From Acidobacteriota bacterium (lineage in GTDB: Bacteria; Acidobacteriota; Terriglobia; 2-12-FULL-54-10): a stretch of DNA of 58,239 bases. Positions 38,670 to 53,245 of the stretch are shown piece by piece. Position 1 is the first letter of the stretch. The number at the start of each line of letters is the position of its first letter. The notes under the pieces were generated by a model that was not told where the DNA came from, searched no databases, and worked only from the letters and a program-made list of their open reading frames with translations. The stretch covers positions 1-58,239 of the forward strand of contig SHUM01000017.1 in assembly GCA_009691245.1 (NCBI GenBank), given 5' to 3'. The translations under genes and the position numbers were made by a program.

Positions 38670-40988
38670 TTGGTGCGCTCAATCAAAGGCTGGTCCCGAA
38701 TAGACACGGCTCGGCGCTATAAGTTGTTCCTGATCTTTTTCGTCGTATTCATCCTTGCGGATACTTCGCCAATAGTTGCGCAGCAGCCCCCGACGAATGG
38801 CGCCGCACCACACACAAGAAAATCGCTAAAGGCGGTCCGCGCGTCCTCGCCCATCCTGCTGGACGGATTATTGAACGAAGCGGATTGGCAAGGCGTCGAT
38901 CCCGCCTCCGGATTTGTGCAGTCCGACCCGGCGGAGGTAGAGCCTGCGACAGAAAATACCGAAGTTCGAATTCTCTACGATGATGAGAACCTCTACATCG
39001 GGGTGAACTGCCACGATGAAAAAGACGCCAACATCATCATCAATTCACTGAAGAAGGATTTCAACAACAACAGTACCGACACCTTCGAGGTGATCATCGA
39101 CACCTTTCAGGATAACCGTAACGGCTACCTGTTCGTAACCAATCCGGAAGGCGCCAAGCGGGATGTCCAGACAATGGATGAAGGTCGGACCAACAACGCG
39201 GACTGGGACACGGTGTGGGATGTTCGTGCGCATATGAATGGCGATGGCTGGACGGCTGAGATGGTGATTCCGTTCAAGAGCCTCAGCTTTGATGAGGCCC
39301 GCCCGGAGCAAATATGGGGAATCAATTTCTCGCGCCGCATCCGCCGCAAAAATGAAATTACATTCTGGGCGCCGATCCCTCGACGTTTTACCATTAACCA
39401 TCTTTCGCTGGCGGGCAATTTGCTGGGGCTGGAAAAGTTACACCGCGGTCGCAACCTGCGCGTGAAACCATTTGTAGTCGGGGAGCTGAACAAGTACTTC
39501 ACGCGCGAACCGCTGGTTAGCAAATCGAAGCAGGGAGTCGATGTCAAGTATAGCGTGACCCCATCGCTGACCATGGACCTTACCGCGAATACCGATTTTT
39601 CGCAGGTGGAAGTGGATGAGCAGCAAGTCAACCTGACCAGGTTCTCGCTGTTCTTCCCGGAGAAGCGGGAATTCTTTCTGGAAAACGACGGCATGTTCCA
39701 GTTCGGTGATCTCCATGGCGATCGAGGCCCGAATCGCTCCCTGGAAACACAAATATTTTTCAGCCGCCGCATTGGCCTGGCCGATGACGGCACGCCGATT
39801 CCCATCTGGGGTGGCGGACGGCTCTCCGGCAAGATAGGGAACTATAGCGTGGGCTTACTCGAAATGCAGACGAAGAATCACAGCAAATTCGTCACGGATC
39901 GATCCGGCAACCTGGTGCGTCAGGACATTCAGGGCGACAACTTTGGCGTACTGCGCGTGAAGCGTAACCTTCTGGCCAACTCCGATATCGGAGCGATCTT
40001 CATTAATCGCCAAGCTTCGCAGGGGAAAGACTATAACCGCACCATGGGCGTCGATGCCAATCTACGTATTCACGAAAACTACTCCGTGAATGCGTTTCTG
40101 GCCAAGACGCGGACGGATGGGTTGGAGGGCAAGGACCTGGCGGAAAAAGTCAGCTTCCTATACCACGACAGTCTCTGGAAGAGCCTGACCGTCTGGACCG
40201 ATCTGCAGGAAAACTTCAACCCGGAAGTGGGATTCACGCAGCGCACCGGAACCCGCTTCGTGCGCCACCGCTCAGACCTGTATATCCGTCCCAAGGGCAG
40301 TCGTTTTGTCCGTGAATTCAATCCCCATATTCTGGTGAATTATTTTATGGACGAGAGCAATCGACTGGTAACCACGAACAACCATTACGCATTCCAGGTA
40401 TTTTTCCAGAGCGGCGCCAGCATGGAGGTCCACTTCGACCCGCAATTCGACCGGCTCGACTCCCCCTTTGAGATTCGCAGGAATCCGCTGACTCCGTCCG
40501 TGACGATTCCCGTGGGGAAATACGAAGATTATTTTTATTCGCTGGAACTCGGCTCCGATCCCAGCAAGGTGCTGTCCGCCAACTTCGCTCTGGAGAAGGG
40601 TCCCTATTATGGGGGCAACAAGAACACGGTGAATCTGTCCGGCGCCTTCCGCCCCAGCTACCGCTTTGCAGTCGAACCCAAGTATTCGATCAATCGCATC
40701 GCGCTATCGAGCGCCGTCGTAAATGGCGTCGCGGGGCAGAGCGTAGTATTTTCGACTCACTTGTTAAGCACACGGGTCAGCTACTATTCCAGCACCCGCA
40801 TGTACCTCAGCACCCTGCTGCAATACAATAGCGACCGCAAACAATTGACCTCCAACATCCGCTTTGATCTCATCCACCGCCCGCTGAGCGACCTGTTCTT
40901 GGTCTATAACGAAGCGCGAGACACCAGCGGCGCGGACAAGACTGATAAGAGTTTCATAGTCAAGTACACCCACATGTTTGCCTTCTGA
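38670..40988 (+). CDS. DUF5916 protein: CBM9-like domain plus outer-membrane beta-barrel
   Basis: 772 residues with a signal-type N-terminus (YKLFLIFFVVFILADTSP, cleaved near IVAQQ). Residues about 50-230 form a carbohydrate-binding family 9-like domain: SSPILLDGLLNEADWQG, then VRILYDDENLYIGVNCHD and WTAEMVIPFKSLSF. From there the DUF5916 barrel follows with DFSQVEVDEQQVNLTRFSLFFPEKREFFLEN, an internal hallmark, and repeated beta hairpins up to the C-terminal aromatic (HMFAF). It has no TonB plug domain. Role unknown; probably an outer-membrane sugar-related or transport protein. The start is TTG (or the GTG three bases later) behind AAGGAAGGG. It diverges from hemL. Confidence 0.82.
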   Translation: MVRSIKGWSRIDTARRYKLFLIFFVVFILADTSPIVAQQPPTNGAAPHTRKSLKAVRASSPILLDGLLNEADWQGVDPASGFVQSDPAEVEPATENTEVRILYDDENLYIGVNCHDEKDANIIINSLKKDFNNNSTDTFEVIIDTFQDNRNGYLFVTNPEGAKRDVQTMDEGRTNNADWDTVWDVRAHMNGDGWTAEMVIPFKSLSFDEARPEQIWGINFSRRIRRKNEITFWAPIPRRFTINHLSLAGNLLGLEKLHRGRNLRVKPFVVGELNKYFTREPLVSKSKQGVDVKYSVTPSLTMDLTANTDFSQVEVDEQQVNLTRFSLFFPEKREFFLENDGMFQFGDLHGDRGPNRSLETQIFFSRRIGLADDGTPIPIWGGGRLSGKIGNYSVGLLEMQTKNHSKFVTDRSGNLVRQDIQGDNFGVLRVKRNLLANSDIGAIFINRQASQGKDYNRTMGVDANLRIHENYSVNAFLAKTRTDGLEGKDLAEKVSFLYHDSLWKSLTVWTDLQENFNPEVGFTQRTGTRFVRHRSDLYIRPKGSRFVREFNPHILVNYFMDESNRLVTTNNHYAFQVFFQSGASMEVHFDPQFDRLDSPFEIRRNPLTPSVTIPVGKYEDYFYSLELGSDPSKVLSANFALEKGPYYGGNKNTVNLSGAFRPSYRFAVEPKYSINRIALSSAVVNGVAGQSVVFSTHLLSTRVSYYSSTRMYLSTLLQYNSDRKQLTSNIRFDLIHRPLSDLFLVYNEARDTSGADKTDKSFIVKYTHMFAF

Positions 40989-41213: not shown

Positions 41214-41633
41214 CTATTTGGTATTCAGGAGAGGGATGCTATTTGGATCGGGAGGAGGCGGCACCGACTTGAGAAAAGCGTAGATCTCCGCCAGCGCCGA
41301 GTCTGAGATTTGACTCTGTGTTCTGAAGGGCGGCATGGCGCGGCCCGGCTTGCGAACGTAGCTCACAAAGGCTGAAAGCGTTCTGCGGCTAGTGTCAATG
41401 CGCGGCCCGGTCTCGGCTCCTTGCCCGGAATAACCGTGGCATGCGAAGCAGGCATAAGTTACAAAATTCTGCTTTCCCTTAGCGATAGTTTCCGTCGAGG
41501 GAGAGGCCTGTGCCAATGTCGGTTGCTGGGCTTGAACGGTTGCCGATGGGATGGCCAGCGGCATGACCAGCAAAAACAGCATTGCCTCAATGAACAATTT
41601 TCCTGAAACACGACACACCACGAAATGGTTCAC
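41214..41633 (-). CDS. Small exported c-type cytochrome
   Basis: About 139 residues. A signal peptide (core IEAMLFLLVMPLAIPSATVQA) is followed by a class I cytochrome c domain. The heme motif is ACFACHGYSGQGAETGP, and MPPF is the likely axial-Met region, followed by an ALAEIYAFLKS helix. The start is a GTG at 41633 because GGGGAGG lies 5 bases upstream; the longer open frame would overlap the neighbouring gene. It begins 37 bases after the stop of the Tat-exported ThDP enzyme, so it is probably co-transcribed and a candidate electron acceptor for that enzyme (inference). Confidence 0.78.
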   Translation of the reverse strand: MNHFVVCRVSGKLFIEAMLFLLVMPLAIPSATVQAQQPTLAQASPSTETIAKGKQNFVTYACFACHGYSGQGAETGPRIDTSRRTLSAFVSYVRKPGRAMPPFRTQSQISDSALAEIYAFLKSVPPPPDPNSIPLLNTK

Positions 41634-41670
41634 ATGGACCTCCCCGGTTTGGCCTAGTTTGGTTGCGTGC

Positions 41671-43512
41671 CTAGTTTGGTTGCGTGATGGTATCGAGCAA
41701 CGCCGGCTCGCCACGCTCGACTACCGCTAGTGCGCGACGGATGGCCGGCCCGAGTTCACGCGGATTGTCGATTGGGCCCTCCGAGTACCAGCCCAAGCTG
41801 CGCGCGAGTTGAGCATAGTCAATGTGAGGTTTGTCGAACACATTACCGAAGTGGCAACGGCTGATGTCGCGGTTGCGCTCGGCCGCCATCCGCGCCACCA
41901 CCATCACTTCCTGATTGTACGACCGGTTATTGTGCATGACGGTGAGCATCGGAATCTTATGATGCGCCGCTGTCCACAATGTCCCCGGTTGAAACATGAG
42001 GTCGCCGTCGTTTTGCAGATTGATGGACAGGCGACCATACTTCCTGTTTGCCAGCGCCGCTCCCACGGCCGCCGGATTGCTGTAGCCGATGCCCACCGAC
42101 CCAGACTGTCCGATGTGGTGATAATACTTTTCAAAATCCCATAGCTTCCACGCCCAATCGCTCATGCCATCACTGCGGGAAACCAGCGACCAATCCTTGG
42201 TTTTGATCTGCTCCCACAATTCGGCTGCGATTCGGGCCGTACTAATGGGACTTGAGTCCCAGCCATGCGAGGCCAGCACGAGGTCCCGCTCTCTGGACTT
42301 TTGATGAGCCTCCGCCAGCTTTACGCGGCGAGCAGCGAAGGCGATCCTGCGATCAGAGGTGATCAGCCGCTTGACTGCTTCGATCAGCGCGGGAAGCGTC
42401 GCCTCGGCGTCGGCCGCGATGGGAATATCGGCTTCCTGATATTTCCCGAAATGCCAGTAGTTGCTCCGCGTAAAGAGGTCGAACGAGCTGATACTGATCA
42501 GCTTCGCGCCCGCCTTGAGACTGTTGCGCGACAGCAGCGGATGCTCCAGCGCCAGCACCACGTCCGCGGTTCGCAACGCGCTACTCTCCTGGCTGAGCGG
42601 ATGCCTCGAAGGGAAGTTCATGCGTTGGATGGTGTCCACGACCGCGGCCTGCAACAGCTCGGCCAGCTCGATGATATATTTCAGGCCGGCTGCGGTGCGC
42701 GCGGCGCGCTCGACGGCAAGCACCGGAAATTCCGCGCTCACCAGAAGACGCGCAACTTCAGCGACCGCGGCGGAATCTCCCTGCGGCGCCGTATTTGGAG
42801 TGTACTTGGGGATATGCAGCTTGGTGCCCGCAGGAATCCGATCTTCCTGTAAACTTTTGTCCACGGTGATCGCCACGGGCATTTGTGGTGGAGTCATAGC
42901 GACGGAATAGGCGCGAACGGCGGAGGCCGCAAAGTGGCTCAGCGAAACCGGCGAGTCATCCCACTTGGTAAAATCGCGGGCCATGCCGACAGGGTCCTGC
43001 GCGCTTCTGGAATTGGGATTTTCAATGGAGTTCCCGAGTAGCAGGTAAACCGGCACACGGTCGCAGAACGCGCTGTAGACCGCCATGGATGCGTGCTGCA
43101 ACCCCACCGAACTGTAAATCAGAGCCGCCAGGGGCTTGCCTTCAATTTTGAAGAAGCCGTGTGCGATAGCCACCGCGGCTTCCTCATGCAGACAGGTGAT
43201 CAGTTCCGGGTTCTTGTTTCCGGTGTAGTTGATGATGGATTCCTGCAGACCGCCGGAGTCGGAGTGGGGATTAATGGTGACATAATCGAAGCCCAACGGC
43301 TTGAGTACGTCCATCATGAAGTCGGACCCGTGGCGCTCCTCGCTCAAAACCTCTACCGTGGTCTCGGCTGCACCCTGGGCCGCCACAGCGCCTGCTGGCG
43401 CGGGCTGCTGCGCAGTCAGAGCTTGAGTGCTGGCAACCAGCGCCGCTCCGCTAGTGGCAGCTACTTTAAGAAAGCTGCGACGATCCAGCGAACTCTTCTC
43501 TGGTTCTTCCAT
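41671..43512 (-). CDS. Tat-exported thiamine-diphosphate-dependent enzyme (acetolactate synthase/benzoylformate decarboxylase fold)
   Basis: About 613 residues. The N-terminus has a twin-arginine signal, LDRRSFLKVAATSGAALVAS. The mature part has the three-domain ThDP layout. The N-terminal PYR domain carries TCLHEEAAVAIAHGFF with the activating Glu, and the C-terminal PP domain has the metal/ThDP motif NLQNDGDLMF followed about 20 residues later by MHNNRSYN. Most members are cytoplasmic, so export as a folded holoenzyme by Tat is notable. Substrate unknown; a 2-keto acid is likely. GGAGGTGA precedes the ATG at 43512. It follows the TonB receptor by 40 bases and precedes the cytochrome by 37. 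Confidence 0.8.
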   Translation of the reverse strand: MEEPEKSSLDRRSFLKVAATSGAALVASTQALTAQQPAPAGAVAAQGAAETTVEVLSEERHGSDFMMDVLKPLGFDYVTINPHSDSGGLQESIINYTGNKNPELITCLHEEAAVAIAHGFFKIEGKPLAALIYSSVGLQHASMAVYSAFCDRVPVYLLLGNSIENPNSRSAQDPVGMARDFTKWDDSPVSLSHFAASAVRAYSVAMTPPQMPVAITVDKSLQEDRIPAGTKLHIPKYTPNTAPQGDSAAVAEVARLLVSAEFPVLAVERAARTAAGLKYIIELAELLQAAVVDTIQRMNFPSRHPLSQESSALRTADVVLALEHPLLSRNSLKAGAKLISISSFDLFTRSNYWHFGKYQEADIPIAADAEATLPALIEAVKRLITSDRRIAFAARRVKLAEAHQKSRERDLVLASHGWDSSPISTARIAAELWEQIKTKDWSLVSRSDGMSDWAWKLWDFEKYYHHIGQSGSVGIGYSNPAAVGAALANRKYGRLSINLQNDGDLMFQPGTLWTAAHHKIPMLTVMHNNRSYNQEVMVVARMAAERNRDISRCHFGNVFDKPHIDYAQLARSLGWYSEGPIDNPRELGPAIRRALAVVERGEPALLDTITQPN

Positions 43513-43552
43513 GACGAGTATCACCTCCGGGTATTGGTCCGACTCCGACGCA

Positions 43553-46500
43553 TCAGAAGCTGTATCTTATACCAAATTGAATCTGCCGCGCCGAGCCGCG
43601 AGTGGTGGAGATACGACCGGCGTCGGCGGCCAACAAGCCGTTGGTGAAAATAGTGGTTACCGGCGTCCCGAAGTTCGGGCGGTTGAACAGGTTGAAAAAC
43701 TCCGCGCGGAACTGCACGCGATGTGATTCCTGGAACTGGAAGTTCTTTTGCACGGAGAAGTCCATGGTGGCCAGTCCAGGAGAAATGAGCGTGTTGCGGC
43801 CCAGGGTGCCGAAATAGCCTGGCTCGGAAGGCACGAACTGGCTGGTGTCGAAATACTTGTCCGGACCGCCCAGCACAGGATTGCTGTTGCCACCGGGAAT
43901 CAGATTCACGCGCAACGACTCGACCGACCCGATCAGCGTGTTCTGGGTAGTGCTGTTGTCATGCACGGAGAGCGGATACCCGTCCGTCAGCGTGAGTATC
44001 CCATTCACCAACCAGCCGCCGGCGATGGCGCCCGCGATGCCGGTGAGGTTTTTGGTGGGCAGTTCATAAGTAAAATTCGTGGTCATGGCATTGCGGATGT
44101 CGAAACTGGCCAAGCCGCGCTTTTCCTTCATGTCCCAATAATAGATTCCGCGTTGGCCCTGTGCAAATTCATCGCCGCCGCTGGTTACCCCGGAGCCCTC
44201 ATCTATGGCCTTCGAGTAGTTGTAAGCCAGCTGCACCTGCAGACCGTGAGTCATGCGCTTCTGTACTCCGATGGCCAAGCCGTGGAAGAAACTGTTGGCG
44301 TTGGATGATTGCGCACGCATCTCGCCAAAGGCTGGATTGACGAGCGCCGCGCCGGGCGAGAAATGCTTGCGCCCCGTAGGATTGTTTGGGAAACCGTCCC
44401 AGCGACGGATGTTGGGCAGTGTCTGGTGTAGCAGATGCAAGCCGCGCGAGCCGGTGTAGCCGGCCGAGGCGACCCAATCCGTGCCGAACGCTTTCTGCAG
44501 CGTCATGCTCCAGCGATGGATATAAGCGTTCGACTGATTCGGTTCCATGTAGCGCAGATTGAACGTCGAAAAGGTCGGGCTATTGATCAGATCGAGATAC
44601 TGATTTACGGCATTGGGCGCCATCTGCAGGGGGCGGTTCGCCGGTACCGAACCAGCGCCGGTGGCGCGCAGGCGGGCAGTCTCGACGAACGGCGGCAGCT
44701 CCTGGAGCGAGGTGCGCAACTGATAGAGCACCGGGTAATCGAAGAAGATGCCATAGCCGCCGCGCACGGAGAAGGTACGGTCACCGGGCGCCCAGGCGAA
44801 GCCGAAGCGCGGACTGAAGCTCTTCAGCGTGGGATTCTGGAAATACTCGACGATGTCGGATTTTACGAACGGGCGCGGCTCATTTTTGTATTGCGCGGCT
44901 ACCTGTGTGGTTACCGAAACAAAGGGATCGAAGATGCTCTCGAGCGTCGAGATCAGGTGATCGTCCTCATCCGGCACGGTAACGAACTCATAGCGCAGGC
45001 CGAGGTTAAAGGTGAGCGACTTCGCCACCTGCCAGTTGTCCTGGAAGTAGCCGCCGAACAGAAGCTGGCGCAGATTGCGCTTGGGGCTCTCGGCGCCGGG
45101 ACGGAATACCTGAAAATCATTGGCGTTGTTGAGCAGAAAATCCGCCAGGCTGTTGAAGGCGAAGATGCCATTGCAGCCGCGGCTGCAGGCGTCCTGCACA
45201 TAGCGGAAGCGTTTGATCTCCGTGCCGAAGCGCAAGGAGTGATCGCCGCTGGTGAGGGAAACTCCCTCTTTGAACTGAAGCGCCTTCTGGGTGGTAGCCT
45301 GGGGGTTGACTCGATAGCCAACGCGCGTGAGGCTGCTGGTGATGCCGATTTCACCCACTCGGTCGCGATCCGGATGGAAGCGCAGCGCGCTGGTGTCGCG
45401 CGAGCCCAACGCAAGATCGCCGGCCACTTCGCTGAGGCTGTAGCCGAACTTCATTTCATTGATCAGGGTCGGCGAGAGTATGGAGATGTGATTCACCGCC
45501 AGCGTCTGCTTCTTGCTGGTGGCCGCCGCGCCCACCTCGGTCAGGTCGCAAAGGAATCCGCAGGGCAGCCGCGAGCTGTCATTCCAACTGTATGTCACCG
45601 CGATCATGCCAGCCTTGTCGTTGGAAAGATGATGGTCGAGCTTGCCGGTTGCTGTGTCATCATCCACCGGTCGCCGCTCAAATCCCGAAATGACCATGGT
45701 CCCGGGATCGGTGCGTTCGTTCGGCAGCGGAGTATTCCCCACGCCCGGCACGGGCCACAGCGCCAGATAAGGTACGATGCGCGGGTCAACGGCTACATTC
45801 ACCACCTGCACAGGATTCGTGCTGTTGCGTACGCCCTGTCCGCGGCGGCCTTCGTTTGACAGCGTAGTAAACCTTTCGGTGTTCAGCGCCCGCTCGCGCA
45901 TGCCTTCGAAGCTGGCGAAGTAGAAGGTGCGGTCCTGCCGGATGGGTCCGCCGAGCGAGCCGCCATACTGGTTCTGCTTGAACTCGCTGCTGACGCCGCC
46001 GCCCAGCGCGTTGTCCTCCCACTTGGAGGCGTCCAGATTGTCATTGCGCAGCGTCCAGAAGCCCGAGCCGTGAATCGAGTTGGTGCCCGACTTGGTTACC
46101 GCGCTGATGATGGCGCCCGCCGCGCTTTGGTATTCGGCGGAGTAGTTGTTCACCACCACCTGAAATTCCTTCACCGTCTCGGCGCCCGTATAAGCGCCGC
46201 CCGCGCCCTGCGGGTTGCTTGATAGATCGGAGTTCGAGACGCCGTCCATCAGGAACAGATTCTGCGTCCCGCGCGCGCCCGCCACGGTGATCTTGTCGCC
46301 CATGCCCGCCTGAATGCCGCCCACGCCGGCGGGACTCTTCAGCACGCCGGGCTGCAGGAAGGCAAACTGCGTCAGGTCGCGGTTGCGCAGCGGCAACTCC
46401 TCGACGCGGCGTTCGACGTCAATCACCTGCGCGACTGTTGCCGTGGTGGTCTCGATGAGCGGAGCCTCGCCGGTTACGGTTACTTGCTCGGCGACGTTGC

Positions 46501-46852
46501 CGACCTCGAGGCGGTGGTCAATCACCGCGATGCGACCAATGGTCAGTCCTATGCCGGCGCGCACGCTGGTCTGAAAGCCCGCGGAGGTCGCGCTCACCTC
46601 ATAGCTGCCCGGCTGTAGGTTGGGTGCTTCGTACCGCCCGTTTGGCCCCGTCACCGTAGCACGGGAAATTCCTGTATTCACGTTCTTCACTGTTACGGCT
46701 GCGCCGGGAATCGCGGCGCCGGATTGATCGGTAACGGTTCCGTTAATGGTTCCTGTGGTGAGTTGAGCCAAGGCAAGGGAGGTCCAGGCCATGACGACTA
46801 GTCCCCCGACGATGAAACGCAATCTAATTGAATACGGAAACAATCCGGTCAT
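43553..46852 (-). CDS. TonB-dependent receptor, Oar-like, with carboxypeptidase-regulatory-like domain
   Basis: 1,099 residues. A signal peptide (ending SLALAQ, about 29) is followed by a carboxypeptidase D regulatory-like domain: INGTVTDQSGAAIPGAAVTV, GRYEAPNLQPGSYEVSATSAG. The plug region follows (VEELPLRNRDLTQFAFLQPG, AGARGTQNLFLMDGVSN), then GTNSIHGSGFWTLRNDNLDA and a long beta-barrel ending IQFGIRYSF, a typical C-terminal aromatic. Such receptors take up large substrates across the outer membrane with TonB energy; acidobacteria encode many. The substrate is unknown. A strong promoter lies about 105 bases upstream and GGAGGG precedes the ATG. It is the first gene of a group with the ThDP enzyme and cytochrome. 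Confidence 0.92.
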   Translation of the reverse strand: MTGLFPYSIRLRFIVGGLVVMAWTSLALAQLTTGTINGTVTDQSGAAIPGAAVTVKNVNTGISRATVTGPNGRYEAPNLQPGSYEVSATSAGFQTSVRAGIGLTIGRIAVIDHRLEVGNVAEQVTVTGEAPLIETTTATVAQVIDVERRVEELPLRNRDLTQFAFLQPGVLKSPAGVGGIQAGMGDKITVAGARGTQNLFLMDGVSNSDLSSNPQGAGGAYTGAETVKEFQVVVNNYSAEYQSAAGAIISAVTKSGTNSIHGSGFWTLRNDNLDASKWEDNALGGGVSSEFKQNQYGGSLGGPIRQDRTFYFASFEGMRERALNTERFTTLSNEGRRGQGVRNSTNPVQVVNVAVDPRIVPYLALWPVPGVGNTPLPNERTDPGTMVISGFERRPVDDDTATGKLDHHLSNDKAGMIAVTYSWNDSSRLPCGFLCDLTEVGAAATSKKQTLAVNHISILSPTLINEMKFGYSLSEVAGDLALGSRDTSALRFHPDRDRVGEIGITSSLTRVGYRVNPQATTQKALQFKEGVSLTSGDHSLRFGTEIKRFRYVQDACSRGCNGIFAFNSLADFLLNNANDFQVFRPGAESPKRNLRQLLFGGYFQDNWQVAKSLTFNLGLRYEFVTVPDEDDHLISTLESIFDPFVSVTTQVAAQYKNEPRPFVKSDIVEYFQNPTLKSFSPRFGFAWAPGDRTFSVRGGYGIFFDYPVLYQLRTSLQELPPFVETARLRATGAGSVPANRPLQMAPNAVNQYLDLINSPTFSTFNLRYMEPNQSNAYIHRWSMTLQKAFGTDWVASAGYTGSRGLHLLHQTLPNIRRWDGFPNNPTGRKHFSPGAALVNPAFGEMRAQSSNANSFFHGLAIGVQKRMTHGLQVQLAYNYSKAIDEGSGVTSGGDEFAQGQRGIYYWDMKEKRGLASFDIRNAMTTNFTYELPTKNLTGIAGAIAGGWLVNGILTLTDGYPLSVHDNSTTQNTLIGSVESLRVNLIPGGNSNPVLGGPDKYFDTSQFVPSEPGYFGTLGRNTLISPGLATMDFSVQKNFQFQESHRVQFRAEFFNLFNRPNFGTPVTTIFTNGLLAADAGRISTTRGSARQIQFGIRYSF

Positions 46853-46959
46853 ATTCGCCCTCCAGCGCCTTTGTGAATTGTCTAAAGCTTGGGAGTTCTG
46901 AGGTCTTCTAACGGCAATAGCTCGGTTCCTTGGTCTTAATCAAACCTTTGACTGCGCCT

Positions 46960-46988
46960 CTTATATCAACTAGGAGACAGCCTGTCAA
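46960..46988 (-). promoter_or_regulatory. Strong sigma70-type promoter of the TonB receptor operon
   Basis: On the minus strand a perfect TTGACA (46983-46988) and TATAAG (46960-46965) are separated by 17 bases. The predicted start is near 46953, giving a ~100-base leader. Confidence 0.75.
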
Positions 46989-47126: not shown

Positions 47127-47170
47127 TGGTTGCGGGGGTGGATTTGAACCACCGACCTTTGGGTTATGAG
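47127..47170 (-). pseudogene. 3' fragment of an initiator-type tRNA-Met
   Basis: The minus strand reads from an anticodon loop CTCATAA through AAAGGTCGGTGG, the T loop TTCAAAT, CCACC and CCCGCAACCA. This matches the 3' half of fMet-type tRNA with CCA, but one C is missing from the acceptor strand. Upstream of the anticodon loop the sequence no longer fits a tRNA: there is no D arm and the 5' anticodon stem does not pair. The break at the anticodon loop is typical of integrase attachment sites. Confidence 0.7.
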
Positions 47171-47473
47171 GGCATTGAAGGTCGCGATTCAGGCCGTCCC
47201 CCGCCAACAAGAACCAATGAAATGGGAATAAAATATATAAATCCCTAAGTTAAGTAGTTTCCCAGATGCCTAGGGAGCAAAGTCATAGCGATTACAGAAG
47301 ATGGTTTCCACCGTAACCGCACTGCTCTAAAAGAGTTGTGGCGCGCTTGAGCAGTTATATCTTGACTAGTCCCCTTGTAGCCCACGATCCCTACTTCACC
47401 AGTCGAGTGGTTCAATTTTCCTCGAACGCCGTTTATCGAGAATAAGGGACGCAGAGAACCAGGATGGAATTGT

Positions 47474-47625: not shown

Positions 47626-47654
47626 TTGACTAATAAGGCCTTAGGGCGTATAAG
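47626..47654 (+). promoter_or_regulatory. Strong sigma70-type promoter of the DUF1592 operon
   Basis: TTGACT (47626-47631) and TATAAG (47649-47654) are separated by 17 bases. A start near 47661 leaves only ~6 bases before the ATG at 47667. This favours the ATG at 47709, which has a G-rich ribosome site, as the true start. Confidence 0.72.
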
Positions 47655-47708
47655 CGAACCACGGGAATGAATTGCTTGAGGGCTATCCACTCCCGAGGGG
47701 GGGCGCCT

Positions 47709-50219
47709 ATGCCGGGAGCGGCCAAGTTGCGGACCATTGCTAAATTGCGGACCATGGGGCAGCCGGGATATGCTTCTCCATTCAAATTCGCATCACGCGC
47801 TGCTGGACTTTTGTTGTTGTGGTTCCTTGCCTGGATACAACCAGCCGTAGCCCAATCCGCCGCTCCCGCAACCTCGCCACAGGCGCTGGTCGGGCGATAT
47901 TGTGTTACCTGCCATAATGACAAGCTGCTCCGCGGTGAATTGTCGCTCGATCATATTAGCTTTGACTCGCTTGCCGATAACGCGGCGGTTTGGGAAAAGG
48001 TAGTCCGAAAGCTGCGTGCCGGAGCGATGCCTCCAGCCGGAGCGCCGCGGCCCGAAAAGGCAGCAGTTGCTTCTCTGATTAGTCATCTTGAAACGGAGTT
48101 AGACAAACAGGCTATAGTCCAACCAAACCCAGGCCGCACCACGGTTCATCGGCTAGGTCGCGTCGAATACACCAATGCCATCCGCGATTTGCTGAACGTG
48201 GAGATTGATGGCGAATCCATCCTGCCGGCCGACGACTCCGGTCGCGGCTTCGACAATCTGGCTGACCTGCTGACGCTCTCGCCGCTGCTGATGGAGCGCT
48301 ACATGTCTGCCGCGGAAAAGATCAGCAGCATGGCATTGGGCGATCCCGCCATTCGCCCAGCGGCCGAAGCCTATGAAGTCCCGGAAATGCTGGTGCAGGA
48401 CGAGCGCGTCAGCGACGAACTTCCCTTCGGATCGCGCGGCGGACTTGCCGTGCGCCACAACTTTCCTCTGGATGGCGAGTACGTTATTCAAGTGCGCCTG
48501 CGGCGCAATCAGGACGGCTACATCCGCGGCCTGCTGACCGGCCCGCACCAGCTTGACGTGCGTCTGGACGGCGCTCGCGTGCGCCTGTTCACTGTGGGCG
48601 GCGCGCGCAACAAGGGCAAATCCGGTTCGCTCTACACGCGCAACGGCCCCACGCATCGCGGCGACATCGAGCTGGTGGACTACGAACTCTCCGCGGACGC
48701 CGAGCTCGAAGCGCGCTTCTCCACCAAGGCGGGAACACGCGTCCTCGGCGCGGCGTTCCTGGAAGACGCCTCCGAGGCGGAAGGCGTGTTGACGCCCCGC
48801 GAGATGTACTCTGATCTCAGCGAGTACAAGGGCGGCGACCCGGACTATCGCGGCGGCGACATTGCGGTCGAGGGCATCACCGTGCAGGGCCCATACAACG
48901 CGGCGGGCATCGGCGAAACGCCCAGCCGCAGCCGCATCCTGACTTGCCGTCCAGCGCAGGCAGCAGAAGCAGAGCCTTGCGCCCGCAAGATTCTGACGAC
49001 TCTCTCTCGCCGCGCGTATCGCCGTCCGGTAAACGACCAGGATGTAGAGACTCTGGTCGGCTTTTACCGCTCCGGCAGCCAAAGCGGCGGATTCGAGGCT
49101 GGCATCCGCATGGCTATTCGTCGCATGTTGGTCTCGCCAAACTTCCTGTTCCGCATCGAGCGCGATCCGGACAACGTCCCGCTGGACACTCCGTATCGCC
49201 TCCAGGAGATGGAACTGGCTTCGCGGCTGTCCTTCTTCCTATGGAGCAGCATCCCCGACGATGAATTGCTCGAGACAGCCGAAAAAGGAAAGCTGAAAGA
49301 TGCGGCCATACTCGAGCAGCAGGTGAAGCGCATGCTGGCCGACCCGCGCGCCAAAGCCCTGGTCAGCAACTTCGCATCTCAGTGGTTGTACCTGCGCAAT
49401 CTGCGCTCCGCCTCGCCCGACCCGCGCGAGTATCCGGACTTCGATGAGAACCTGCGCAGCGCTTTCCAGAAGGAAACCGAGTTGCTGATCGAGAGCACGA
49501 TCCAGGACGACAGCAGCGTGTTGGACCTGTTGACCGCGGACTACACCTTCCTGAATGAGCGGCTGGCGCGCCACTACGGCATTCCCAATATCTACGGGAG
49601 CCACTTCCGTCGCGTCTCTCTAAGTGATTCCAGTCGCATGGGCCTGCTGGGCCAGGGCAGCGTACTGACCGTAACCTCGCACGGCAACCGGACCTCGCCG
49701 GTGCTGCGCGGCAAGTGGGTGCTTGAAAATCTTCTGGGCACGCCGCCGCCGCCGCCGCCGCCCAATGTCCCCGCGCTGGACGACAAGAGCAAGGAAGCTC
49801 GGACCCAGACCATGCGGCAGAAGATGGAACTGCACCGCGCCAATGCAGTCTGCGCCAGTTGCCACGCGCGCATGGACCCCATCGGGTTTTCGCTCGAGAA
49901 CTTTGATGCCGTCGGCAAATGGCGCGCCACGGATTCTAATCAGCCCATCGACGTTTCCGGCGCGCTGCCGGATGGCTCCGCGTTTCAGGGGTCCGTAGGC
50001 TTGAGGAAAGTATTGCTCGACCATTCCGATTTGTATGTGAGCACTCTGACCGAAAAGCTGCTTACCTATTCGCTCGGCCGAGACATCCAGCATTACGATC
50101 AGCCCGCGGTACGCCGGATTCTGCGCGAAGCCGCGGCTGCGAACCACCGCTGGTCGGCGCTGGTGCTGGGCATTGTTAAAAGTGTTCCGTTTCAAATGAG
50201 GAGGACCAGACCGTCATGA
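47709..50219 (+). CDS. DUF1592-family secreted cytochrome-like protein (DUF1587/1595/1592/1588/1585)
   Basis: About 836 residues with a signal peptide (LLLLWFLAWIQPAVAQ). In order: a cytochrome-like heme motif GRYCVTCHND with AGAMPPAG; DUF1587 (RVEYTNAIRDLLNVEID); a beta-rich carbohydrate-binding-like insert (EYVIQVRLRRNQDGY); DUF1595 (LSRRAYRRPVNDQD); DUF1592 (LASRLSFFLWSSIPDDEL); DUF1588 with a second heme motif VCASCHARMDPIGFS; and DUF1585 (LTYSLGRDIQHYD). The family is common in Planctomycetes and acidobacteria, with no settled function. A short tandem repeat in the N-terminus encodes KLRTIA-KLRTM. The stop overlaps the DUF1552 start (ATGA), so the two are coupled. Confidence 0.88.
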   Translation: MPGAAKLRTIAKLRTMGQPGYASPFKFASRAAGLLLLWFLAWIQPAVAQSAAPATSPQALVGRYCVTCHNDKLLRGELSLDHISFDSLADNAAVWEKVVRKLRAGAMPPAGAPRPEKAAVASLISHLETELDKQAIVQPNPGRTTVHRLGRVEYTNAIRDLLNVEIDGESILPADDSGRGFDNLADLLTLSPLLMERYMSAAEKISSMALGDPAIRPAAEAYEVPEMLVQDERVSDELPFGSRGGLAVRHNFPLDGEYVIQVRLRRNQDGYIRGLLTGPHQLDVRLDGARVRLFTVGGARNKGKSGSLYTRNGPTHRGDIELVDYELSADAELEARFSTKAGTRVLGAAFLEDASEAEGVLTPREMYSDLSEYKGGDPDYRGGDIAVEGITVQGPYNAAGIGETPSRSRILTCRPAQAAEAEPCARKILTTLSRRAYRRPVNDQDVETLVGFYRSGSQSGGFEAGIRMAIRRMLVSPNFLFRIERDPDNVPLDTPYRLQEMELASRLSFFLWSSIPDDELLETAEKGKLKDAAILEQQVKRMLADPRAKALVSNFASQWLYLRNLRSASPDPREYPDFDENLRSAFQKETELLIESTIQDDSSVLDLLTADYTFLNERLARHYGIPNIYGSHFRRVSLSDSSRMGLLGQGSVLTVTSHGNRTSPVLRGKWVLENLLGTPPPPPPPNVPALDDKSKEARTQTMRQKMELHRANAVCASCHARMDPIGFSLENFDAVGKWRATDSNQPIDVSGALPDGSAFQGSVGLRKVLLDHSDLYVSTLTEKLLTYSLGRDIQHYDQPAVRRILREAAAANHRWSALVLGIVKSVPFQMRRTRPS

Positions 50220-51583
50220 TGATATTCAAGAAAGCCATTCCCCGCCGGACATTTTTGCGCGGCGCCGGAGTTACACTGGCGCTGCCGCTGCTGGATTCCA
50301 TGCTGCCGGCTCTTACCCCGGCCCTGGCCGCTTCCGCGGTGAACGACAGCGGCCAGGCGCCGCTGCGCATCTCGTTCATCTACGGCCCCAACGGCAGAAT
50401 CATGGACCGCTGGACTCCTCGCGAGACGGGCGCTGACTACAAGCTGACTCCCACACTCGAGCCGTTGGCCGCCTTCCGCGATCAGATGACCGTGGTCAGC
50501 GGATTGAACATCAAGGCTGCCGATGCCGTGGGCAACGAGCCGGGCGGAAATCACGCCCGTCCCTGCGCGGCGTATCTTACCGGCATCCATCCGCGGCCCG
50601 GCGGGTCGCTGGGCATTTCCGCGGATCAGATGGCCGCGCGCGAGCTGGGCAAGCACACCCAGCTGGCCTCGCTCGAATTGGCGCTCGATCCTTCCGACGG
50701 CTTGGGAGCCGCCGACGGCGCTTACAGCGATGCCTACACCAAGACCATCTGCTGGCGCAGCGCCACCACTCCGCTGCCGATGGAGAATAACCCGCGCAAG
50801 GTTTTTGAGCGGCTGCTGGGCGACAGCGACAGCACGGACTCAAACGAGCGACTGGCGCGCATTCGCGCCAACCGCAGCATTCTCGACTCGGTGATGCGGG
50901 AAGCCACCCCGCTGCTGGCCGATAGCGGACCAGCCGACCGCCTCAAGCTGAGTGAGTATCTGGAAGCGGTCCGCGACATCGAGCGCCGCATTCAACTGGC
51001 CGAGCAGCAGTCCTCGCGTGAGCTGCCGGAGATGGCCAGGCCGGAGGGTATCCCGGCGACGTTCATCGATCATGCCAAGCTCATGTTCGATCTGCAACTA
51101 CTGGCCTTCCAAAGCGACCTGACGCGCGTGATCACCTTCATGCTGGGCCGCGAACAATCCGACCGGCCGTATCGCGAAATCGGAATCTCCGACGGCCACC
51201 ACGCGCTGTCGCACCACGCCGGGCATCAAGACGCCATCGCACAGAACGCGCAGATCGATGTTTATCAGTCCAAGATATTCGCCTACTATCTCGACCGCCT
51301 GAAATCCACGCCCGACGGAGACGGGTCGCTGCTGGATCACATGATCATGCTCTACGGCTGCGGCATGAGCGACGGCAACCTGCATGTGCATAACGATGTC
51401 CCCAGCCTGCTGGTGGGCGGCGCGGGCGGCAGGCTGAAGGGCGGCCGGCACATTCAATTCAACGGCTTGCCGCTTTCCAATCTGCTCCTAAGCATGATGG
51501 ATATTGGCGGCATTCCGATGGACGGCTATCTGGACAGCAAGTACAGCGACGCCACCGGCAAGCTGGATTTGCTGACCGCTTAA
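50216..51583 (+). CDS. DUF1552-family Tat-exported protein
   Basis: 455 residues. A twin-arginine signal (PRRTFLRGAGVTLALPLLDS) is followed by the DUF1552 domain: PLRISFIYGPNGRIMDRWTP, NHARPCAAYLTGIHPR, SQDLTRV-like QSDLTRVITFMLG, GISDGHHALSHHAGH and MLYGCGMSDGNLHVHNDVPS. The sulfatase/alkaline phosphatase-like architecture with many His and Asp suggests a metal-dependent periplasmic hydrolase or binding protein, but the function is unknown. It overlaps the DUF1592 gene by 4 bases; the two families are routinely paired, so a joint complex is likely. A small stem-loop follows, then the ankyrin gene. Confidence 0.9.
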   Translation: MMIFKKAIPRRTFLRGAGVTLALPLLDSMLPALTPALAASAVNDSGQAPLRISFIYGPNGRIMDRWTPRETGADYKLTPTLEPLAAFRDQMTVVSGLNIKAADAVGNEPGGNHARPCAAYLTGIHPRPGGSLGISADQMAARELGKHTQLASLELALDPSDGLGAADGAYSDAYTKTICWRSATTPLPMENNPRKVFERLLGDSDSTDSNERLARIRANRSILDSVMREATPLLADSGPADRLKLSEYLEAVRDIERRIQLAEQQSSRELPEMARPEGIPATFIDHAKLMFDLQLLAFQSDLTRVITFMLGREQSDRPYREIGISDGHHALSHHAGHQDAIAQNAQIDVYQSKIFAYYLDRLKSTPDGDGSLLDHMIMLYGCGMSDGNLHVHNDVPSLLVGGAGGRLKGGRHIQFNGLPLSNLLLSMMDIGGIPMDGYLDSKYSDATGKLDLLTA

Positions 51584-51606
51584 GCGGATGCGCCTTGGCG
51601 CATCGC
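51584..51606 (+). other. Intercistronic stem-loop after DUF1552
   Basis: GATGCGCC-TT-GGCGCATC forms an 8-bp perfect stem immediately after the stop codon. There is no T run, so it more likely stabilises the mRNA or partly attenuates than terminates. Confidence 0.45.
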
Positions 51607-51637
51607 TGAAGAATCATTCAACTTTCGAGGTTCCCGT

Positions 51638-53245
51638 ATGTGGTACTCGCTTCATCGCACGTGTATGCTGTCTCTCATTTTGTTAGTTCCGGTTTTCGCC
51701 CGTGCCGCTGGCAGCGATTTGAGCGTGGCGGAGGTGGTGAAGCGCGGAGACCGCGCAGCTCTCAGCCAACTGTTGGCAGGCAAAGCGGACGTGAATCAGC
51801 CGCTGCCCGATGGTTCCACCGCGCTCGCCTGGGCGGTTCATCGCGATGATGCTCCGACGGTGGATCTGTTGATTCGTGCGCGCGCCAACGTGAATGCGGT
51901 GAACGAGTACGGCGTCAGCCCGCTTTCACTGGCCTGCACCAATGCCAATGCGGGCATCGTCTCGGCTCTGCTGCGGGCGGGTGCGAATCCTGCCCTCGCC
52001 AAGTGGACCGGTGAAACTCCGCTGCTCACTTGCGCGCGCACCGGCAATGTGGATGCGGTGGCCGCGCTGCTGGACCAAGGCGCGGACGCGAACGCGAAGG
52101 AGAATCAACGCGGACAGACGGCCTTGATGTGGGCCGTTGCCGCGAAGCATCCCGCGGTGGCGAAACTGCTGATCGCTCGCGGCGCCGATGTGAACGCCAC
52201 CTCGCGGTTGCTGGAAACACACACGCCCAAGATGATCGAGTACTATCTGCAGGATGTCCATTACGCTAAATCCAAAGGTGGATTCACGCCGCTGATGTTC
52301 GCCAGCCGTTTAGGCGATCTGGAATCGGCCAGGCATTTGTTGGCGGCGGGCGCCAAGATCAACGCGGTGGCGCCGGAGTATGGCAGCGCGCTCATTGTGG
52401 CCACGGCCAGCGGCAATGAAGACGTGGTCATGCTTCTGCTGGACAAAGGAGCAGACCTGAACGCCACGGACGGGGTTGGGTTGACGGCGCTGCACTGGGC
52501 GTTGCAAGGCGGTATCAAGGCTCTTTACGGCGCGCCTGCTTCGGCCACGGACCGTTTCTGGAATCACTCCTCGAGCCCTAGGCTGGTGAAGGCCTTGCTG
52601 GCGCGCGGCGCGGACCCGAACGTGCGCATCAAGAACAATTTCATGCCTTATGACATCCCGATGTTCTCGCACGCGATCGGAAATAATCTGCCGCAGATCG
52701 GGATGCAAGGGGCGACTCCGTTTCTGCTCGCCGCGGCGACTTCTGATGTCGCCACCATGCGCCTGCTGGTGGAGGGTCGGGCCAATCCCAAACTCCTGGC
52801 AGTGGACGGGAGCACGCCGCTGATGGTGGCTGCCGGTCTGGGCCGTGAACGGGTGAGCAAGAACCTCGGCATGACGCCAGAGGACGAAAAGGCCGCGCTG
52901 GAGGCCGTCAAGATGGCCGTGCAGTTGGGTGCTGATGTGAATCAGGCCAATGCCAACGGCCGTACCGCGCTGCATGGGGCTGTGGAGCTGGGCGCGAATA
53001 GCATCATCGAATATCTCGTGCAGCAAGGCGCTGACCTCGAAGCCAAGGACAAATACGGGCAAACACCCATGACCATTGCCCTGGGTGATCCAGGCCAATT
53101 GATCTACCGCCAGTTGGAGGGCGGCCGGCCTGACGATAGTTTTCGTGCGGCAATTTTGGGTGGACAGAAAGCCACGGCGGATCTTCTGCTGAAACTGGGA
53201 GCCGCGCCTTATACGGGCATCGTGGTGGACCGCGCGGGCCAATAG
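51638..53245 (+). CDS. Secreted ankyrin-repeat protein (paralog 1)
   Basis: 535 residues. A signal peptide (MLSLILLVPVFARAAG core) precedes about ten ankyrin repeats across the mature protein. Examples are GSTALAWAVHRDDAPTVDLL, TGETPLLTCARTGNVDAVAAL, QTALMWAVAAKHPAVAKLL and RTALHGAVELGANSIIEYLV. A region near 205-225 and another near 305-330 depart from the repeat pattern. Ankyrin proteins bind other proteins; in this envelope context it may serve as a periplasmic scaffold. It clearly resembles the protein at 56649-58091. It follows DUF1552 after 54 bases and precedes a TonB receptor by 85, so all may be co-transcribed. Confidence 0.85.
   Translation: MWYSLHRTCMLSLILLVPVFARAAGSDLSVAEVVKRGDRAALSQLLAGKADVNQPLPDGSTALAWAVHRDDAPTVDLLIRARANVNAVNEYGVSPLSLACTNANAGIVSALLRAGANPALAKWTGETPLLTCARTGNVDAVAALLDQGADANAKENQRGQTALMWAVAAKHPAVAKLLIARGADVNATSRLLETHTPKMIEYYLQDVHYAKSKGGFTPLMFASRLGDLESARHLLAAGAKINAVAPEYGSALIVATASGNEDVVMLLLDKGADLNATDGVGLTALHWALQGGIKALYGAPASATDRFWNHSSSPRLVKALLARGADPNVRIKNNFMPYDIPMFSHAIGNNLPQIGMQGATPFLLAAATSDVATMRLLVEGRANPKLLAVDGSTPLMVAAGLGRERVSKNLGMTPEDEKAALEAVKMAVQLGADVNQANANGRTALHGAVELGANSIIEYLVQQGADLEAKDKYGQTPMTIALGDPGQLIYRQLEGGRPDDSFRAAILGGQKATADLLLKLGAAPYTGIVVDRAGQ

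Follow-up and report, generated by a model that had tools for sequence, protein, structure and literature searches.

What would a ThDP-dependent enzyme do outside the cytoplasm, encoded beside a secreted cytochrome c? ThDP enzymes of the POX/AHAS/BFD fold are normally cytoplasmic, and export through the Tat pathway suits proteins that carry their cofactor out already folded. The question is raised by the window studied here, a 58,239-nucleotide stretch of acidobacterial DNA, which carries on its minus strand, 5' to 3', a promoter-like site and the genes for an Oar-like TonB receptor, a ThDP enzyme with a Tat-type signal, and a secreted monohaem cytochrome c. A first-pass annotation had described this row, and all of its elements were found (Table 1). 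It had also read the three genes as one transcription unit for substrate uptake, periplasmic decarboxylation or oxidation of a keto acid, and disposal of the electrons to the cytochrome.

Gene row in the window

The promoter-like sequence 5' of the receptor gene is the sole zero-mismatch match to its pattern in the window, where 1.1 matches with ≤2 mismatches are expected by chance; a stricter promoter scanner passed over it because that scanner demands T at position 6 of the −10 element. The enzyme gene begins with ATG, 40 bases past the receptor stop codon, and the cytochrome gene begins with GTG, preceded by GGGGAGG, 37 bases past the stop codon of the enzyme gene. The mechanical open reading frame of the cytochrome may begin earlier (41714), in which case it overlaps the enzyme gene. 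The stop codon of the enzyme gene lies within a tandem duplication of approximately 17 bases, CACGCAACCAAACTAGG, at positions 41650 to 41690. The receptor gives Pfam matches to the OMP_b-brl_4 barrel (1.9e-165) and to CarboxypepD_reg (2.6e-20), and no separate Plug domain was matched at E 0.001. Receptor, enzyme, and cytochrome form a putative operon in the window genus.

Table 1. Features of the receptor-enzyme-cytochrome row, in window coordinates.
Feature	Position	Strand	Basis or remark
Sigma-70-like promoter TTGACA-N17-TATAAG, 5' of receptor gene	46960..46988	-	exact match
Oar-like TonB-dependent outer-membrane receptor	43553..46852	-	CarboxypepD_reg + OMP_b-brl_4 barrel; local, not a conserved partner
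ThDP enzyme with Tat signal, 613 aa, POX/AHAS/BFD fold, core of the module	41671..43512	-	Pfam domains, model, structural matches
Predicted N-terminal Tat signal: DRRSFLK, then hydrophobic stretch, ALTA-QQ	43411..43512	-	low-confidence model region
Codon of Glu110, aminopyrimidine-activating Glu	43183..43185	-	invariant, 47-sequence alignment
N-D-G-D (501-504), metal/diphosphate motif	42001..42012	-	Asp502-Gly503 invariant
Asn529 of HNNRSYNQE, second metal ligand position	41926..41928	-	invariant
Secreted monohaem class I-type cytochrome c, 139 aa with Sec-type signal	41214..41633	-	conserved partner
CFACH haem-binding motif of cytochrome	41436..41450	-	sequence

A predicted Tat-exported ThDP enzyme and its cytochrome

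The N-terminal, central, and C-terminal domains of the enzyme all exceed Pfam cut-offs: TPP_enzyme_N (4.9e-15; 55.8 bits), TPP_enzyme_M (PF00205, 8.4e-8; 32.5 bits), and TPP_enzyme_C (2.4e-20; 73.3 bits), the central match being weak and barely over its cut-off. An AlphaFold model (mean pLDDT, 81) has the POX/AHAS/BFD fold; glyoxylate carboligase, benzoylformate decarboxylase, and acetohydroxyacid synthase, each about 20% identical, head its structural matches. An alignment of 47 relatives shows no variation at His109, Glu110, Asp502, Gly503, or Asn529, so that ThDP chemistry is expected, from an enzyme of the POX/AHAS/BFD type with its predicted cofactor sites intact. The N-terminus carries DRRSFLK followed by hydrophobic residues and a probable cleavage site, as Tat substrates do; its first 49 residues were modelled at low confidence, as expected of a cleavable signal, and the twin-arginine motif is kept across the exported clade. 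The enzyme is thus predicted to be exported via Tat, and the earlier reading of a Tat-type signal on a protein whose ThDP motifs are intact has held up in both parts.

Among the NCBIfam matches listed, no curated named-family cut-off is passed. The best match, the thiamine pyrophosphate-requiring protein NF006203/PRK08327, reaches 211.8 bits, far under its cut-off of 456, and the scores against benzoylformate decarboxylase (NF005485, 121.8; cut-off 493) and the acetolactate synthase large subunit (TIGR00118, 99.2; cut-off 538.35) are likewise below. Glyoxylate carboligase has Val where other family members have the activating Glu, and the invariant Glu110 sets the window enzyme apart from it. 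Benzoylformate decarboxylase (MdlC; PDB 4q9d and 1bfd) gives the best PDB sequence matches (5e-25) and has the fold in common with the window enzyme, but it is cytoplasmic, has no cytochrome, and is only about 20% identical.

Another related system is PoxB, the pyruvate:quinone oxidoreductase, which is likewise a ThDP enzyme of this fold and passes electrons from a 2-oxoacid to the respiratory chain. PoxB works in the cytoplasm with FAD and quinone, whereas the window enzyme has a Tat signal, a cytochrome c partner, and no recognisable FAD motif of the acetolactate synthase type. The genome's own acetolactate synthase has the motifs GGG, GMHG, and GARxDDRV, which are presumed FAD contacts, and in a single alignment none of them is kept in the ThDP enzyme. 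The enzyme is probably flavin-free, and with these motifs missing, ThDP may be the sole redox-active group ahead of the haem. The alternative is a tightly bound flavin, as in PoxB, that would reduce the cytochrome in place of ThDP. The fold is common to pyruvate oxidase and acetohydroxyacid synthase, and the central domain retains a weak match to PF00205; that match is just over its cut-off, however, and the presumed FAD contacts are gone, and we regard a flavin as improbable.

The cytochrome has the features of a class I-type cytochrome c: CFACH, RAMPPF, an invariant Met100, and a hydrophobic N-terminal signal. A small exported cytochrome c as partner of the enzyme, as the first-pass annotation had it, is supported.

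Conservation and history of the pair

Relatives were gathered from 37 loci on named contigs, the window's relatives, 297 genomes of its phylum, and plasmids, and further from 9 genomes reached through these loci and from samples of the classes to which a Woeseiaceae MAG (Gammaproteobacteria; G347) and a Rhodoplanes MAG (Alphaproteobacteria; G348) belong. Each relative was scored by script for a Tat motif ahead of the ThDP domain and for a neighboring open frame that contains CxxCH. The table of 136 sequences holds 78 members with both, 9 with a Tat motif and no haem neighbor, 39 with neither, and 1 with a haem neighbor and no Tat motif, the rest being unassigned. An adjacent haem protein therefore accompanies 78 of 87 Tat-bearing members versus 1 of 40 non-Tat relatives (Fisher p 8e-23, relatedness ignored), and the lone non-Tat case is an open reading frame with a truncated N-terminus. 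As controls, other genes of ≥250 aa in the same loci have such a downstream haem neighbor in 3 of 226 cases. The pairing of ThDP enzyme and cytochrome is far beyond chance.

The receptor behaves differently. Only four lineages, namely the window genus, L005, L109, and L019, have a TonB receptor gene immediately 5' of the enzyme gene and in the same orientation; in Novosphingobium the receptor gene lies downstream. TonB receptors are the next most frequent neighbor family after the enzyme and cytochrome, at 5 of 42 wide loci, and clustering of the neighbors across these loci found no widely recurrent family besides the pair itself. Conservation of the three-gene order, which the first-pass annotation had set as a check, is not borne out: the trio is local, the receptor can be left out of the account, and the real unit is a two-gene pair of Tat-signal ThDP enzyme and cytochrome c.

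The pair is not confined to Acidobacteriota, and many genomes hold several copies, with up to 12 matches. Six main-clade enzymes stand without a cytochrome (L096, L097, L100, L101, L118, and L125), and every one of their genomes also holds a paired copy. The multiple copies in soil Acidobacteriota suggest a family of substrate-specialised paralogues. Three genomes (G048, G023, and G036) have 7 to 12 matches to the exported ThDP family, some of them fragments, in a lineage-specific expansion. A putative ThDP fusion in G098/G304 (open frame 900) proved to be an open-frame extension of a cytosolic homologue and no haem fusion, and CxxCH is absent from a 1,019-residue open frame at L143.

In the tree, the main exported clade (84 rows; SH-aLRT, 99) spans Acidobacteriota and Gamma-, Alpha-, and Betaproteobacteria. 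Closest to it in the tree stand cytosolic enzymes that lack cytochromes, those of Sinorhizobium, Phyllobacterium, and Neorhizobium among them. The sisters in Sinorhizobium and Phyllobacterium show 35 to 38% identity and have the same catalytic residues, yet they have neither a Tat signal nor a cytochrome. Exported enzymes are separated from the cytosolic sisters at Ser84/Ala, Glu91/Asp, Gln139, and Glu535/Asp, and the sisters in Phyllobacterium and Neorhizobium adjoin tripartite tricarboxylate transporters; the Sinorhizobium record is unannotated. A second exported clade, with two members in the window genome (L040 and L041), is 25 to 30% identical to the main clade and, judged from the sequences, gained its Tat signal independently. 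Of the eight members sampled from it, five are accompanied by different types of haem protein, upstream or downstream, among them a protein with three CxxCH motifs, an HHH_3 protein, and a Dehyd-heme_bind match. At two second-clade loci (L089 and L090), the ThDP enzyme, a three-haem cytochrome, and more genes, including another Tat-signal protein, run in one direction. Within the main clade, a CytoC_RC cytochrome upstream replaces the small downstream cytochrome at L052.

Distances among enzymes and among their cytochromes are strongly correlated (Mantel r = 0.94, p = 2e-4), and the correlation also holds within both subclades. A tree-corrected test of independent pairs has no power because there are only two Tat gains and thus too few pairs, and the strength of the pairing evidence rests on retention. 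With most cases stemming from one event, the adjacency might be read as a frozen gene order without functional coupling of enzyme and cytochrome. Against such a reading, the pair is kept across phyla while every other neighbor has been reshuffled, and the second exported clade recruited unrelated haem proteins; we consider it very improbable. Full-length relatives with 69 to 71% identity occur in gammaproteobacterial MAGs at L007 and L013, a placement that suggests horizontal transfer or misbinning.

Proposed electron transfer to the cytochrome

Exported dehydrogenases encoded next to their own small cytochrome c are well known among PQQ alcohol dehydrogenases, FAD gluconate dehydrogenases, and the sulfite dehydrogenase SorAB. 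The present pair has the layout of these PQQ, FAD, and Mo systems, with the cytochrome gene adjoining the enzyme gene across lineages, and differs in that its catalytic cofactor is ThDP. The window genome encodes TatC, haem-copper oxidase subunit I, and cytochrome c assembly proteins, and together with the invariant ThDP ligands and the missing FAD motifs, this favours oxidative turnover with the cytochrome as acceptor. We think it rather likely that the enzyme is a periplasmic ThDP-dependent dehydrogenase of 2-oxoacids (or aldehydes) that gives its electrons to its own cytochrome c. Periplasmic keto-acid oxidation with electrons passed to the cytochrome, as the first-pass annotation had it, thus stands as the best functional reading of the conserved pair; its uptake step was tied to a receptor that is not conserved.

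In such a scheme, the enzyme would take up ThDP and Mg2+ as it folds in the cytoplasm and then be exported via Tat. In the periplasm, it would attack its substrate, a 2-oxoacid or perhaps an aldehyde or similar carbonyl compound, forming the enamine (Breslow) intermediate on ThDP, from which electrons would pass to the haem of the adjoining cytochrome c in two one-electron steps. The cytochrome would deliver them to a terminal oxidase, and the acyl-ThDP would be released as a carboxylic acid. In the window genus, the TonB receptor of the same putative operon would import the substrate. The sequences themselves show the pair and its conservation, the Tat-type and secretory signals, and intact ThDP and haem sites; the oxidation chemistry, direct transfer from ThDP to haem, the 2-oxoacid substrate class, and the role of the receptor are what we infer. 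The immediate neighbors at sampled loci (peptidases, an amylase, MmgE/PrpD, an aminotransferase, and MFS genes) are mutually unrelated and give no substrate consensus. Pairing alone is no proof of direct electron transfer, and the 9 Tat-bearing members without a haem neighbor also count against this scheme.

The main rival to the dehydrogenase reading is a non-oxidative periplasmic decarboxylase or carboligase yielding an aldehyde or acyloin, which a separate periplasmic dehydrogenase would oxidise, feeding the cytochrome. It would agree with the closest structures, which are of benzoylformate decarboxylase, glyoxylate carboligase, and acetohydroxyacid synthase types and mostly non-oxidative, and with the missing FAD motifs; however, no separate dehydrogenase recurs near the pair, and the cytochrome is the sole conserved neighbor and is absent from the cytosolic relatives. 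We therefore hold this route to be unlikely. The more specific form of the dehydrogenase reading, direct transfer from a ThDP enamine to haem c without flavin or iron-sulfur cluster, evolved twice by Tat export and cytochrome recruitment, we put forward tentatively.

The exported ThDP enzyme and its cytochrome constitute a widespread, apparently undescribed two-gene module; no description was found in the open full-text literature, and since most subscription papers lie outside that coverage, its novelty is provisional. If the dehydrogenase reading is true, thiamine would join PQQ, FAD, and Mo as a cofactor of periplasmic dehydrogenases, and soil bacteria could respire keto acids or related carbonyls without importing them. 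It would also raise the chemical question of whether electrons can pass straight from a ThDP enamine to haem c. The pair occurs in many soil bacteria, and in some from marine and other habitats, which suggests an uncharacterised route for oxidising acids or aldehydes outside the inner membrane, with the electrons passing to respiration.

The surroundings of the row include several further features. A sequence at about 47130 to 47190 looks like the 3' half of a tRNA whose anticodon loop is of CAT type, although ARAGORN made no call there; it is possibly a truncated tRNA or an old integration site. Diverging from the receptor gene, a DUF1592-type cytochrome gene at 47667 (plus strand) is directly preceded by a promoter-like TTGACT-N17-TATAAG with one mismatch (47626 to 47654, plus strand). 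It is the first of a row (47667 to 53245, plus strand) encoding a haem-motif PSD/DUF1592-DUF1588 protein, a DUF1552 (HXXSHH) protein, and an ankyrin protein, all exported-looking and uncharacterised. On the other side, convergent with the small cytochrome gene, lies a gene for a DUF5916 and CBM9 outer-membrane-type protein (38670 to 40988, plus strand), which is also present at L001.
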